This document shows positions 24,751-32,523 of a stretch of DNA of 64,000 nt, piece by piece (within the stretch, counting starts at the first letter, position 1; every line of letters starts with the position of its first letter). The notes below the pieces were generated by a model. The model saw nothing but the letters and a program-made list of their open reading frames with translations. It was not told the origin of the DNA and ran no database searches. The stretch is from Bacteroidia bacterium (GTDB lineage: Bacteria > Bacteroidota > Bacteroidia > M30B66): assembly GCA_018401705.1 (NCBI GenBank), contig JAGYKL010000009.1:1-64000 (forward strand), in the 5' to 3' direction. The position numbers and the translations under genes are program-made.

Positions 24751-27700
24751 ATGCTAAATCTACTACGCACTCTTTTCATTTCTTTGCTTTTGGTATTCTC
24801 CTTGGGTTCGCAAGGACAAACCAACCAGCTAACTTTTGAGCGTATTTCGAGCCAGAAATGGCTGTACCAAAGAAACATCACCTGCGTAACGCAGGATTCT
24901 AAGGGTTATTTATGGTTTGGCACGAATAACGGCTTGTACCGATTTGATGGATATTCTATTCGTGAATTCAAGCATGATGCTCACAATACTAACACAATTA
25001 ACCACAACAATGTTAATTGCATTTATGCCGACAAGTCTGGGATATTGTGGATAGGCACTTGGGGTGGTTTGAGCAGGCTAGACCCTTCAAGCGGAGCTTT
25101 TACCAGATATAAGTATGACCCGAGAAATATCAAGTCTCTTTCAAATAATGATGTTAGGGCAATTGATGAAGACCTCGACGGAAACCTTTGGGTAGGAACT
25201 TTTGGAGGAGGACTAAATAGATTTAACCGACTCACCGGAGAGTTTACTGTTTTTCAATTCTCTAAGCAAAACGCCGGAAGTATCTCAAGTAACTACATAA
25301 ACACACTTTCACGAGATAGAAAGGGCGATATTTGGGTTGGTACAAGAAGAGGCATTAATAAGCTTGAGCCAGAAAATGCTCGCTTCACTAGTTATCAGAG
25401 CATGAGCGATGAGAATGAAGAGCAAGCTTCGGCAAATATCTCATGCATCTTTGAAGATAAAAACGGAGCTATTTGGTTTGGCACCTTTGGAGGAGGCTTA
25501 TTGCAACTCGACAGAAGAAACGGCAAGCTTCTTAGCTATATGCACGACCCTAAGTCGTCTGCATCAATCTGTAATAACACTATCAATTCTATTGTAACCG
25601 ACAACGATAACCAACTTTGGATTGCTACACCAGAAGGCATAAATATTCTTGATTTAGAATCTGGAAACCTGCAATTGGTTCAAAACAATCCAGATAATCC
25701 CGGAAGCCTTCAAAATAATGATGTACGACTGCTTTTTAAAGATAAAGCCGAAATCATTTGGACTATTAGCGCAGAAGGAGTTTCAATATACTCTAAACTT
25801 TCTGGAAGATTCAGGAAATTTCAGCGTAATCCCAACGAGGATAATAGTCTTTCCTCAAATATTATAAATGCTTTCATTGAAGAGCCTGATGGAACAATTT
25901 GGATTGGTACCAGAGAGGGCCTTAACCGCTTCAACCGTAAAACAAGAGAATTTAAAACCGTTATTCTTGAATCAAAAGTGAAGGGTTTATCTGTGAGCAA
26001 TGAAATAAAGTCTTTGCTTATTGATTCTAAAGGCCGGTTTTGGATAGGCACAACAAACGGACTAAGCCTCTTTAACCGGGAAACAAATAAAGTAGAGGTT
26101 TTCCGATACGACCCGGCAAATGCAAACAGCCTCAATAATGAAATCCATACGATTTTCGAAACTCGTAATGGAGAGATATGGTGCGGAATTAGAAGGGGTT
26201 TGGTGAAATTCGACACAGAAACTGGCTATTTTACTTTGCATAGGCCTGACCCATTGGTTTCTGACAATCAGATTTCTAATAGTGTTTACACTATTTTAGA
26301 AGACCGGTTTGGGAATTTTTGGGTAGGAACACTTGGAGGTGGATTAAGTGAGTTCAACCGTGAAAATGAAACCTTTAAACGATTTAAGAATAACCCCAAC
26401 GACTCTTTAAGCTTATCGCATAACTCTGTTATTTCTCTTCACGAAGATCAGTTTGGCTTCTTTTGGGTGGGCACCTACGGTGGAGGTTTAAATCGGGTAG
26501 ATAGAAAATCCGGGCGCTTCATCAATTACACTGCTCGGAATGGTTTGCCTGATGATATCATCTACAGTATTCTGGAAGATAGCAATGGAAACCTCTGGAT
26601 GAGCACAAATACTGGACTGGTAAAATTCGACACAAAAAGTAAAACATTCAGAAATTATGATGTGCTAGATGGTTTACAAAGTAATGAGTTTACTATAGGT
26701 TCTGCACTTGAATGCAAAAATGGGGAAATGCTTTTTGGAGGTATTTCTGGATTCAATATGTTTTATCCTGATAGCATTCAAGAAAACAATTACATCCCTC
26801 CTACTGTAATCACACGATTTAAAGTACTCGATAAAGAAGTTGTTCCAGGCTCAGAAGCTATAGAACTAGCTCACAATCAAAATTACGTAACCTTCGAATT
26901 TTCATCACTTAGCTATGCTTTGTCAGATAAAAATCAATTTGCCTACAAACTTCAAGGTTTCGATGAAGATTGGGTTTTTAGCGGGAATCGTCGATTTGTC
27001 TCTTATTCTAATTTAGGCCCCGGAGAATATACCTTTCAGGTCAAAAGCTCCAACAGTGATGGTTTATGGAATGAAAGTGGCAGCACACTAAAGCTTATCA
27101 TAGAGCGCCCATTTTGGAAAACATGGTGGTTCATATTAATATGTGTTCTTGTATTTATAGGCCTTCTCTATCTGGCATTAAGGCTAAGGGTTAGAAACGT
27201 AAATATTCAAAATCAGGTACTTGAAGAAAAGGTTAAACTAAGAACCTCTGAGCTTGAAAAAGCAACTGAAGAGGCTCAAGCAGCAAAAGAAGCTGCGGAA
27301 AAAGCAAGTCGCTCAAAATCTGGGTTCCTCGCAAATATGAGTCATGAAATCAGAACTCCACTCAATGGGATTTTAGGTTTTACTGACCTGCTCATAAGAA
27401 ATGAGCCCGCAGAAGATGACAAAAAGTATCTAGAACTCATTCGTTCTTCGGGCGATACTCTTTTAAATCTCCTGAGTGACATTCTCGATTTGAACAAGAT
27501 TGAGCAAGGCAAATTGAGCATTGAGGCTATACGCTTTAATTTTATTGAAGCAGTTAAACAGACTCTCGTTCCATATCAATATAGGTCAAATGAAAAGGGT
27601 TTACAGTTTCATGTGAGTTTTGATGAAAGAATTCCCAAGCTGGTGCTTGGTGATCCGACTCGTATTAAGCAGTTAGTTATTAATCTTGTCTCAAATGCAA

Positions 27701-28461
27701 TTAAATTCACCGAAACTGGTGGAATATCTGTTGAGTTCAAACTTGAACAGGAAATTAAAGGAGAAGAAGAGTTTTTTACACTTATCGGGGTTGTTACCGA
27801 TACAGGTATTGGGGTGCCAGAAGATAAGCAAGCATTAATCTTCGATAGCTTTACACAAGCTGATGGTTCATTTACCCGTAAATACGGGGGAAGTGGACTA
27901 GGTTTATCTATTGTAAAGCAGCTACTTAAACTCATGAAGGGTAGCATTAAGCTCGAAAGTCCAGCACCTGAACTACATTTTGAATCTGCAAACCCGGGAG
28001 CAACATTTACATTTAGATTAGAACTTCAGGCTCAGGCTTCTGAAGATGAAAGCAATGAAACGAATAATTCTAATGGTCAAGCAGATAATTTCCACTTTGA
28101 TGAGAATTACCGAATTCTACTTGTTGAAGACAATAAGATTAATCAATTACTTGCAATGACCATTTTGCAAAACTTTGGTGCTGAAGTAATTACTGCCGAT
28201 GATGGTAGCCAAGGAGTTGAAAAAATGAAAGCGGAGGATTTTGATTTAGTACTCATGGATGTTCAAATGCCAGTTATGAATGGTTATGAGAGCACGGCTG
28301 CAATGAGAGCAATGGGCATTCAACTTCCAATCATAGGTTTAACAGCTAATGTGTATAAAGAGGATATAGAGAAGTGCATAGAATCTGGAATGAATGCGCA
28401 TTTAGGTAAGCCTTTCACCGAAGCTACTTTGTTTAAAGAACTAAAGAAGTGGCTAGATTAA
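24751..28461 (+). CDS. propeller/Y_Y_Y hybrid sensor histidine kinase with receiver
   Basis: A 1236-residue hybrid two-component protein. A signal peptide (MLNLLRTLFISLLLVFSLGSQG) precedes a periplasmic double propeller of about 14 units, each ending in a motif such as LWIGTWGGLSRLD. A Y_Y_Y domain (AYKLQGFDEDWVFSG) follows. One membrane helix (WWFILICVLVFIGLLYL) leads to a coiled linker, the HisKA domain with NMSHEIRTPLNG, a HATPase domain (DTGIGVPEDKQ; GGSGLGLSIVKQL) and a receiver with its Asp in LVLMDVQMPVMNG. Unlike classical HTCS proteins there is no C-terminal AraC DNA-binding domain, so it must signal to another regulator. Such sensors in Bacteroidota often sense glycans, but the ligand is unknown. 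Confidence 0.93.
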   Translation: MLNLLRTLFISLLLVFSLGSQGQTNQLTFERISSQKWLYQRNITCVTQDSKGYLWFGTNNGLYRFDGYSIREFKHDAHNTNTINHNNVNCIYADKSGILWIGTWGGLSRLDPSSGAFTRYKYDPRNIKSLSNNDVRAIDEDLDGNLWVGTFGGGLNRFNRLTGEFTVFQFSKQNAGSISSNYINTLSRDRKGDIWVGTRRGINKLEPENARFTSYQSMSDENEEQASANISCIFEDKNGAIWFGTFGGGLLQLDRRNGKLLSYMHDPKSSASICNNTINSIVTDNDNQLWIATPEGINILDLESGNLQLVQNNPDNPGSLQNNDVRLLFKDKAEIIWTISAEGVSIYSKLSGRFRKFQRNPNEDNSLSSNIINAFIEEPDGTIWIGTREGLNRFNRKTREFKTVILESKVKGLSVSNEIKSLLIDSKGRFWIGTTNGLSLFNRETNKVEVFRYDPANANSLNNEIHTIFETRNGEIWCGIRRGLVKFDTETGYFTLHRPDPLVSDNQISNSVYTILEDRFGNFWVGTLGGGLSEFNRENETFKRFKNNPNDSLSLSHNSVISLHEDQFGFFWVGTYGGGLNRVDRKSGRFINYTARNGLPDDIIYSILEDSNGNLWMSTNTGLVKFDTKSKTFRNYDVLDGLQSNEFTIGSALECKNGEMLFGGISGFNMFYPDSIQENNYIPPTVITRFKVLDKEVVPGSEAIELAHNQNYVTFEFSSLSYALSDKNQFAYKLQGFDEDWVFSGNRRFVSYSNLGPGEYTFQVKSSNSDGLWNESGSTLKLIIERPFWKTWWFILICVLVFIGLLYLALRLRVRNVNIQNQVLEEKVKLRTSELEKATEEAQAAKEAAEKASRSKSGFLANMSHEIRTPLNGILGFTDLLIRNEPAEDDKKYLELIRSSGDTLLNLLSDILDLNKIEQGKLSIEAIRFNFIEAVKQTLVPYQYRSNEKGLQFHVSFDERIPKLVLGDPTRIKQLVINLVSNAIKFTETGGISVEFKLEQEIKGEEEFFTLIGVVTDTGIGVPEDKQALIFDSFTQADGSFTRKYGGSGLGLSIVKQLLKLMKGSIKLESPAPELHFESANPGATFTFRLELQAQASEDESNETNNSNGQADNFHFDENYRILLVEDNKINQLLAMTILQNFGAEVITADDGSQGVEKMKAEDFDLVLMDVQMPVMNGYESTAAMRAMGIQLPIIGLTANVYKEDIEKCIESGMNAHLGKPFTEATLFKELKKWLD

Positions 28462-28549: not shown

Positions 28550-28618
28550 CGCCCTGTTTGACCTGCAATAGATTTATATTGTATCAACCAGAAAAAGGGT
28601 TTTTCACTCTTTTAGAAT

Positions 28619-28690
28619 GGCCTCGTAGTTCAATGGATAGAATAGAAGTTTCCAAAACTTTAGATACAGGTTCGATTCCTGTCGAGGCTA
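28619..28690 (+). tRNA. tRNA with CCA anticodon on an arginine-type body
   Basis: A 72-nt cloverleaf folds completely: acceptor GGCCTCG with CGAGGCT (a G-T pair at 1:72), D arm GTTC/GAAT with loop AATGGATA, anticodon stem GAAGT/ACTTT with loop TTCCAAA, variable AGAT, T arm ACAGG-TTCGATT-CCTGT, discriminator A. CCA is not encoded at the 3' end. The anticodon (28652-28654) reads CCA, which decodes UGG (Trp). But the D-loop GGA with A20, the AGAT variable loop and A73 are those of bacterial tRNA-Arg, and a CCT anticodon would be expected there. It may be a mutated tRNA-Arg, a pseudo-tRNA or a divergent tRNA-Trp. Confidence 0.75.
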
Positions 28691-28793
28691 CATTCTTTAA
28701 TCAGGTCAAGTTAAGGCTACTCGTTTTACTTACAGTAACCAAATTTTATTTTCTAGCTTTATACTTGTTCTTAAGTAAACAAGCAAAACTCAA

Positions 28794-31700
28794 TTGAAGC
28801 TATACCAATTTGCAAGAAGCATTATTTTATTAGTTGCAATTTTATACGCTTCTGATTCTTTGCTTGTTTTCACAGCAAATGGCTGGAGATTTAAGAATTA
28901 TTCAGTGGACGATGGATTAGCTCAAAATTCAATCAACGTCTTTTATCAAGATAATCTAGGTTATTTATGGATTGGAACTCAAGATGGAATTAGCCAGTTT
29001 GATGGACTTACGTTTTTTGATATTCTGGAGATAGTCTATTTTGTAATAAGTTTATATGGGATATTTCATCAGTAAAAATGGAGAATTCTGGATAGCAACC
29101 TTTGGAGGGGGCTTGATTTATTATAATTTATTCTCCAACAAAGCAAGCTGCTACTCAAAAATATGATTCAATAAAATGAATTATCAAGCAATAGAATTTT
29201 TGCATTGAAAACGAGGGAGAATCTGGACATTTGGCTTGGTAGCAATGAAGGTATAATATTCTTTGATAAAGCAACCCATACTTACAAAGAATACTTGCCA
29301 AAGTATAATGCTGAAGGACAAAGAATGATAATTATATAGGTAAGGTAAATCCACTAAACAACATCTTTGGTTCAGTGGGGATTATGGATTAGGCTATTTT
29401 AAAAAAGACTGAAAAGGACATCATGAATCCCAAGGTTGTTTTCAAAGAGAAAGTCTCTGACCTAACTGTATTAAGAACGACGTATACTTTTCTTCCGGAA
29501 ATAAAATCTACAGAATAAATAAAAAAAATAATTCCTACTCCAACATATCAAAATTCATTGAGATTGAAAACAATACTCCCATTAATTGTATTCTGACATA
29601 AAAAAATCAACTATGGCTAGTTGAAGCAGCGATGGCCTTTATGTTTATAATGATGAAACAAAATCATTAATTAATCAAAGCAAAACACGTCTGACAAATA
29701 CAGCTAGTCCATAATAATGTTGCGTCTCTTTTCATGAGCAGAGACGGAACTAACCTATGGGTTGGCACAAGAAATGGCATTTCTAAAATCGAAAATGTAG
29801 ATAATCCTTAATAACCTAATAAGAAGACCAATGATAAAAAGGGCTGATAAGTCCCCACGTTAGCTCGTTTGTCGAAGAATCAGACTCTATAATTTATGTT
29901 GGAACTAATAAAGGAGTTCTAAATTAAATCTAAAGAATCAAGAATTGATTTTCCAAAGTTTATTGTCTACTGAACCCAAATTCACTGGAGTATGTGGTTT
30001 CTCCTTACAAATGGAAATGATAAAATACTTGTTGTATAAAAACAATGGTGTTTGTCATTGATAAAAAACAATTTATACAAGCCTTTCTTTAAATGGAACT
30101 TACCCTGAAATTTAAAATACAATAATTAATATATTCTATGCAGATAAGAAGAAACAACTATGGCTTGGAACATCTAACAGGACTATAAAATCCACTGAAA
30201 CTGGTTCAATACGACATTTATTACAACTGAACAGGGATTTAAAACATAGTGTTTATGCAATAAAAAGTGATAGATAAAAATAGAATTTGTGACTGCATCT
30301 GGAGGATTATCTTGCTATGACCAAGAGCAAGATTACATTTTACCGGTAAAGAGCTAGATGGTAAAAACTTTATCCTCACAATGCATATTGATCATTTAGG
30401 AATACTTTGGATTGGAACAACACAAGGAATTGTTAAGTCAAAAATCTATAAACGATCTATCCACATCAGAAATTGAAGAAGTAACAAGACTAAGGGAAAA
30501 CGCATTTAGTGAATTAAACAAAGCAAACCTTCCTAATGATGTAATTTCAGCATCCTACAAGATAGCAAAAATGACATTTGGGTTTCTACAAACAAGGTAT
30601 TGCTAAAATTGATTTTGTAAAAGAGACAGTTGTTAACATTGAGTGTTTCTGATGGCTTACAAAGTAATGAGTTCAATCAAAATGCCTATTTGAAATCATC
30701 AAAGGTTACTTTTTTATGGTGGCAAGATGGTCTTAATTACTTTAACCCAGACTCAATAAGTAATCATATCATCATCGAAAACCATACTTAACCTCATTAT
30801 CTATCTATGGTGAAGAGGTTAAAGTGGACAAAACCACTCTTCTGGAATTACAAATTGATAATTCTATCATTTGGAAAACTTAAACCTGTCTTATCTTCAA
30901 AACGCTTTTCTATTCGATTTGGATCCACCTACTCCGCTACCGAATCAATAATATACAATTACAAGTTAGAAGGTTTTGATGATGAATGGATAGCTCAAGT
31001 AGTAATAATATAGCTACCTATACAAATCAATGGGACTATACATTTCTAATTACAAGGATTTCTTACGACAAAATAAGAATGAGTCACAAATTACAAAACT
31101 AGTTATAAATTTCAACTCCTCCTTGGAAAACCTGGTATGCTTTCGCATTGTATTTTCATAGCAATAGGAGCAAATTATTTTATTCATTTGTAAAATTTAG
31201 AATAAATAAAGAAAGAAAAGAAATTGAATTAAAAAGACAACTGGAAAGCAAGACTAAAACGTGAAGCATTTGAAAACAAAGCTCAGCAGATTTTCAATGC
31301 TGGGAAATATATCACAAAGATTAATCTGGTTACTGAAATCACAAAAGTCAGTTTGCTAAAGAAATCAATTCAGCTCTGGATAAGGTTCAAGAACTGTCAA
31401 AAATCTAAGCAGATCTATGCGTGATTTTTTATGGAATCTTAATCCGCAAATGGATAATATTCAGGAACTCTCCTATAAAATCATTGATTCTGCCAAATTA
31501 TTTACTAGAAGACACTGAGATAGAACTATTTGTAAAAACCACAAGCATTAAATAAGAGCAAATTAAGCATAGACATCAAAGAAATGCATTATTGATTTTC
31601 AAGAGTTAGTTTTAAATATTGTTAAGCATTCTAATGCAACCAAAGTTGAATTCAGTGTCAAAGAGAGCCCAAAACAGTTTCGTTTATTCTAAAAGAAAAT

Positions 31701-31862
31701 GGAATTGGCTATGATACATCTATTGAAAGAAGAATCATTATGGTCTTCAGATAATTAAAGATAGAGCTCTAAAGATTAAGCTGAATTAATAATTAATAGT
31801 AAAAATAAAGATGGTTCTACGATACCTTAGTTGTTAAATACCCCAAATGGGTAATTAGCTAA
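28794..31862 (+). pseudogene. decayed propeller/Y_Y_Y sensor histidine kinase
   Basis: About 3 kb in which pieces of one protein appear in changing frames, broken by many small indels and stops. In order: a signal-like start and GLAQNSINVFYQDNLGYLW at about 28.9 kb; propeller units such as GEFWIATFGGGLIYYN (29.1 kb), NLWVGTRNGISKIEN (29.76 kb) and GILWIGTTQGIVK (30.4 kb); a Y_Y_Y piece NYKLEGFDDEW (30.96 kb); a HisKA_3-type stretch MRDFLWNLNPQMDNIQEL (31.4 kb); GLQIIKDRA (31.75 kb); and a plausible C-terminus stop at 31860-31862. It was a NarL-partner sensor kinase. Neighbouring genes are intact, so true decay is favoured over poor sequence, but neither is proven. Confidence 0.85.
31839..31853 (+). 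promoter_or_regulatory. putative LuxR-type operator upstream of response regulator
   Basis: TACCC, five bases, GGGTA: an inverted repeat ending 22 bases before a perfect TAnnTTTG. The half-site ATGGGTA is the complement of TACCCAT, which fits the NarL heptamer consensus TACYYMT. It overlaps the last codons of the decayed kinase. Confidence 0.5.
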
Positions 31863-31875
31863 GAAATAATCACAA

Positions 31876-31883
31876 TAAATTTG
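31876..31883 (+). promoter_or_regulatory. -7 element TAAATTTG of the response-regulator gene
   Basis: A perfect TAnnTTTG 16 bases before the ATG, about 30 bases from the operator centre; no TTG at -33, consistent with activator dependence. Confidence 0.55.
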
Positions 31884-31899
31884 TTCCAAAAATTTTCTC

Positions 31900-32523
31900 A
31901 TGGATAAGATTAGTGTTTGCATTGTTGAGGATGAACCTGAATTACTCAAATTATTCAGTCAAATTATTGAGAGCTCTCCCGATTTGTCTTGTTATTTAGC
32001 AGTTGATAATTGCGAGAATGCGCTTAAGAATATGGCAGATTTCTGCCCTGATGTAGTTTTGATGGATATTAACCTGCCTGGGATGAATGGGATTGAAGGT
32101 ACTAGAAAAGTTAAAAGTCTTTGCCCTAATTGCGACATTATTATGCTTACGATTCAGGAAGAAAATGATTATGTATTTGATTCTCTTTGCGCAGGCGCAT
32201 CGGGATATCTGCTAAAAGACAGTTCTCCTAATAAAATTCTTCAAGCTATAATAGAGGTGAAGTCTGGGGGATCTCCTATGTCGCCAAGTATTGCAAGAAA
32301 AGTGATTAAATCATTTCATCCTGCAATAAACAATCCTCTGAGTGATAGAGAACTTGAAGTACTAAAGAAATTAACTCAAGGACAAAATTACAATACAATT
32401 GCTAACTCACTGTTTATTAGCGGAAACACCGTGAAGGCGCATATCAAAAATATCTACCGAAAACTTGAGGTAAATTCAAGAGCAAGTGCAGTTGAAAAAG
32501 CAATTCATAAAAGATTGATATAA
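31900..32523 (+). CDS. NarL/FixJ-family response regulator
   Basis: A 207-residue regulator. The receiver has the acidic pair in IVEDEPEL, phospho-acceptor Asp56 in VLMDINLPGMNG, a Thr/Ser switch in IIMLTIQ, and Lys in YLLKDSSP. The C-terminal LuxR HTH follows (LSDRELEVLKKLTQG, TVKAHIKNIYRKL). It lies directly behind the decayed propeller kinase, the usual partner arrangement in Bacteroidota, so it probably lost its cognate kinase. Similar inverted repeats upstream of its own promoter and of the next operon suggest it activates both. Confidence 0.95.
   Translation: MDKISVCIVEDEPELLKLFSQIIESSPDLSCYLAVDNCENALKNMADFCPDVVLMDINLPGMNGIEGTRKVKSLCPNCDIIMLTIQEENDYVFDSLCAGASGYLLKDSSPNKILQAIIEVKSGGSPMSPSIARKVIKSFHPAINNPLSDRELEVLKKLTQGQNYNTIANSLFISGNTVKAHIKNIYRKLEVNSRASAVEKAIHKRLI

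Follow-up and report, generated by a model that had tools for sequence, protein, structure and literature searches.

A tRNA-Arg(CCU) Ortholog Assembled with a CCA Anticodon near an Error-Ridden Stretch of a Bacteroidia Contig

The tRNA Gene and Its Neighbours

The window, a stretch of 64,000 nucleotides, is the first half of the 127 kb contig C89 (C89:1-64000). Its sole tRNA gene lies at 28619-28690 on the forward strand. ARAGORN reports it as a tRNA-Trp(cca) at 28619-28691, and the Rfam tRNA model covers 28619-28690 end to end (68 bits, all positions matched), with no mispair flagged in the alignment. A match to mir-964 is below cut-off and is ascribed to chance. The anticodon loop is TTCCAAA, with the anticodon CCA at 28652-28654 and, therein, an A at position 36 (28654). 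A20 is present within AATGGATA, the first pair is G1-T72, and the discriminator base is A73. An earlier note on this DNA, made from the sequence alone, had described a fully folding cloverleaf with these very features, and its description is accurate. Broken stems or a lost promoter were sought in the gene as signs of decay and none were seen, and the 71 bases other than that at position 36 fit a functional tRNA-Arg(CCU). Promoters of Bacteroidota carry a -7 element of consensus TAnnTTTG. A promoter-like box TATCTTTGCGC resembling this element is found at 28550-28560 on the same strand, 59-69 bases upstream of the tRNA, and similar boxes also precede the tRNA genes of relatives.

Upstream of the tRNA, an intact gene without frameshift encodes a hybrid histidine kinase (24751-28461, forward strand). 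Downstream, the gene of a two-component-regulator-propeller sensor kinase (28796-31880, forward strand) is broken, and an intact LuxR-type response regulator gene (31900-32523, forward strand) forms the right edge of a noisy stretch. Downstream of the hybrid histidine kinase there is thus a second pair, made of a propeller sensor kinase and a LuxR-type regulator (28796-32523). No such pair was seen close to tRNA-Arg at the family loci examined, where the regulator gave a weak match in G007 only.

Orthology and Rarity of the Assembled Anticodon

BLAST of the 72-base gene returns matches in 52 of 60 relatives. The best matches inspected in relatives are all tRNA-Arg(cct) (29 of 29), and so are the matches at the family loci. 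Identity of the tRNA body to the tRNA-Arg(CCU) of the compared relatives, all of which have CCT, ranges from 83 to 96%; identity to the tRNA-Trp of the same genome is 59%. The nearest gene, the tRNA-Arg(CCU) of relative G020 (96% body identity), differs by base 36 and one acceptor-stem base pair. In the window as in G004, G005, G006, and G007, recA is followed by nth, the hybrid histidine kinase gene, and tRNA-Arg(CCU), while G009 keeps the kinase and tRNA order; the kinase orthologs of these loci share 59-72% identity. As this gene order matches that of the family loci, the gene at 28619-28690 is identified by position as an ortholog, not a copy, of the ordinary tRNA-Arg(CCU) that the family has in single copy and that reads AGG. 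A second gene with the same Arg body, be it with the normal CCT anticodon that the earlier note had proposed to look for, was not found in the genome. A duplicate or decaying extra copy is ruled out, the gene being both syntenic and the only one of its kind.

Compared with the tRNA-Arg(CCU) of the class in Bacteroidota, the gene shares its body, stems, A20, variable loop, A73, and the family gene neighbourhood, but differs in having A assembled at position 36, where the class has T. The rarity of this base was assessed by searching the anticodon-arm pattern, with any base allowed at position 36, in a class set of 395 genomes. The arm is carried by 275 of them, and when the search is repeated with T excluded at this position, the source genome is the only one left among the 275. 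In a collection of 84,980 genomes, CCA on this arm gives no match, and the CCT version of the same pattern is abundant among the matches listed.

Error-Ridden Stretches of the Contig

Along most of contig C89, long open frames cover a share of 0.8-1.0, which falls close to zero at 28-32, 78-83, and 102-108 kb. The first of these regions harbors the broken sensor kinase, which displays ~31 frame jumps in 3.1 kb, the first at ~29030-29046, together with 3 in-frame stops. No frame jump at all is seen in two control genes, 3.7 and 4.3 kb long. In the second noisy stretch (~77800-83000), recR and the GDP-mannose 4,6-dehydratase gene (gmd) can be read only by jumping between frames. The third contains a 16S gene (107228-108693, reverse strand), no other having been detected in the assembly; it scores 1175 bits, whereas family members reach about 1540. 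Across 908 positions that do not vary among 17 relatives, it accumulates 37 substitutions and 16 deletion events, and the 17 relatives have no deletion at these positions. Bases are lost at universally conserved places, as in the change of CTACGGGAGG to CTACGGAGG. Being full of deletions and substitutions, this 16S sequence is unfit for taxonomy. The 23S gene of the contig displays the same type of damage. Beside the rRNA operon, tRNA-fMet (103693-103767, reverse strand) and tRNA-Ile(gat) (107016-107088, reverse strand) have indels at conserved positions, namely a G or A inserted in the T loop and a G run shortened in the variable loop.

Two repeat-like features have also been observed. Tandem-like repeats of SKVLLSLSKQDIGL units occur at ~77800-83000, and error-ridden copies of a short frame, YTGFTSDFESRFQSHNELGTKGWTKAYRPWKVV..., are repeated at ~101800-103600, adjoining the rRNA operon. 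The short frame resembles what we take, by eye, to be a GIY-YIG domain.

The broken kinase, the 16S gene, recR, gmd, and the two indel-bearing tRNAs establish that the contig contains noisy, long-read-like stretches. The signature of the damage is that of a poorly polished, long-read-like consensus, from which we infer the sequencing technology. Probably, the assembly of the contig linked accurate stretches through such poorly polished sequence. The kinase had been described in the earlier note as decayed. True decay is unlikely, because frame jumps far outnumber in-frame stops, the propeller motifs are still recognisable, and the 16S, 23S, recR, and gmd genes of the same contig are damaged likewise. 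Its lesions are of the error type, as are those of tRNA-Ile and tRNA-fMet.

Position 28654 Relative to the Noisy Stretch

The noisy stretch begins within about 400 bases of the tRNA. It is certain from ~29030 to 31880. On the left, it may start at any point from 28461 up to the first certain frameshift at ~29030-29046, and probably starts between 28461 and 29030. Base 28654 may thus itself belong to low-quality sequence. No indel or frameshift is visible between 28461 and ~29030, an interval that takes in the first ~235 coding bases of the kinase, so that 28654 may also fall in clean sequence. A rough boundary model, using the frame-jump rate of the noisy patch, gives a prior chance of 1-6% that 28654 is within the patch. 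Once the observed change is considered, an error becomes 25-94% likely depending on the assumed rates, and ~50-94% likely with real-mutation rates <=1e-4.

Codon Use and Identity Determinants

AGG represents 11.6% of the Arg codons (0.116, compared to 0.078-0.129 in the family loci of relatives), and TGG is used 10.9 times per 1000 codons. The AGG share being inside the relatives' range, there is no sign of a loss of the CCU tRNA. In a codon alignment of four genes with their relatives, AGG stands opposite Arg in 30 of 44 cases and opposite Lys in 10, and TGG stands opposite a conserved Trp in 88 of 98. With ordinary codon usage, AGG aligned with Arg or Lys, and TGG aligned with Trp, recoding is not indicated and a change of the genetic code is ruled out. 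Pattern searches of the assembly found no tRNA-Arg(UCU) able to cover AGG. The tRNA list of the assembly comprises 150 scored candidates of 286, and the list of the complete relative G005 likewise lacks this tRNA; both lists are non-exhaustive, and nothing therefore follows from its absence. An ordinary tRNA-Trp(CCA), the presence of which the earlier note had suggested checking, is found at G000:C1:51287-51359 of the source genome, with A1-U72 and G73.

The bacterial arginine determinants have been reviewed as A20, C35, U/G36, and A/G73, and those of tryptophan as G73, A1-U72, C34, C35, and A36 (PMC9976931). As assembled, the tRNA at 28619-28690 carries neither set in full. On the arginine side it has A20 and A73, but in place of U36 (anticodon CCU) it has A36, a base that is doubtful. 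On the tryptophan side it has C34, C35, and A36, but A73 and G1-U72 instead of G73 and A1-U72.

Explanations of the A at Position 36

Most probably, a sequencing or assembly consensus error and not the organism itself is the source of this A, because long stretches of the contig are riddled with errors and one of them starts within ~400 bases of the gene. This assessment weighs the range given by the boundary model together with the unchanged AGG use. An error falls short of proof, in that some 235 coding bases downstream of the tRNA are free of visible damage up to the first frameshift, and the tRNA has no further defect. Part of the earlier reading stands: the body is that of tRNA-Arg(CCU), as attested by synteny, by the tRNA-Arg(CCU) genes across the class, and by the body identity of 96%, and a single T-to-A change at 28654 accounts for the anticodon, since the orthologs carry T there. 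The note offered three fates for the gene: Arg insertion at UGG codons, service as a poor Trp tRNA, and decay of a copy. Each is less likely than an error, and the stems and the promoter-like box are intact.

The main rival, which we consider appreciably less probable, is a recent and real T36A mutation that would have silenced tRNA-Arg(CCU) at the onset of its decay. Such a tRNA would be transcribed but poorly charged, since ArgRS requires U/G36 and TrpRS requires G73 and A1-U72, and neither set is complete (PMC9976931); AGG would then be read through wobble by tRNA-Arg(UCU). The absence of a visible indel around the tRNA is in keeping with this scenario, and so is the otherwise undamaged state of the gene, which a very recent change would leave. 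However, the change is unique among all genomes searched, AGG use is unchanged, sequence known to be noisy is close by, and the required tRNA-Arg(UCU) was not found in the non-exhaustive search of the assembly. Were the base real, a poorly charged, recently silenced tRNA would be the likeliest outcome, and a weak insertion of Arg at UGG a possible one.

The latter outcome corresponds to a T36A mutant of the single-copy tRNA-Arg(CCU) acting as a missense suppressor, charged with Arg and inserting some of it at UGG (Trp) codons. A20, C35, and A73 are retained, A20 being described as what chiefly determines arginylation in E. coli (PMC9976931), but A36 departs from the Arg set. Trp sites would pay the cost, at 10.9 TGG per 1000 codons, and the alignment of TGG with conserved Trp (88 of 98) also argues against it, making this scenario improbable. 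A second tRNA-Trp, remodelled through a switch of anticodon and amino acid alike, agrees with the CCA anticodon and the ARAGORN label, but is the most improbable of all, the acceptor stem showing no adaptation (G1-U72 and A73, not A1-U72 and G73) and a normal tRNA-Trp already being present in the genome.

If the base were real, the gene would represent either a natural missense suppressor made by one base or the very onset of an identity switch. With the preferred reading of a base error, the locus illustrates how unpolished patches, in an assembly rated 98.5% complete, can give rise to spurious pseudogenes and anticodon changes and to a corrupted 16S gene. When recoding or tRNA remodelling is claimed from assemblies of this kind, the support for the bases concerned should be checked.

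Comparison with Known Systems

Shifts of tRNA anticodons (alloacceptor shifts) have been detected through synteny (Rogers and Griffiths-Jones 2014, PMC3923123). They share with the present case a syntenic tRNA gene with an anticodon altered by one base. Those shifts, however, are eukaryotic and extend across groups of related species, whereas the present one is confined to a single bacterial assembly with doubtful base quality. In bacterial arginine codon reassignments, both the use and the meaning of AGG have changed genome-wide (Shulgina and Eddy 2021, PMC8629427). A tRNA for AGG is involved in both situations, but in the present genome Arg remains the residue opposite AGG, and Trp that opposite TGG.
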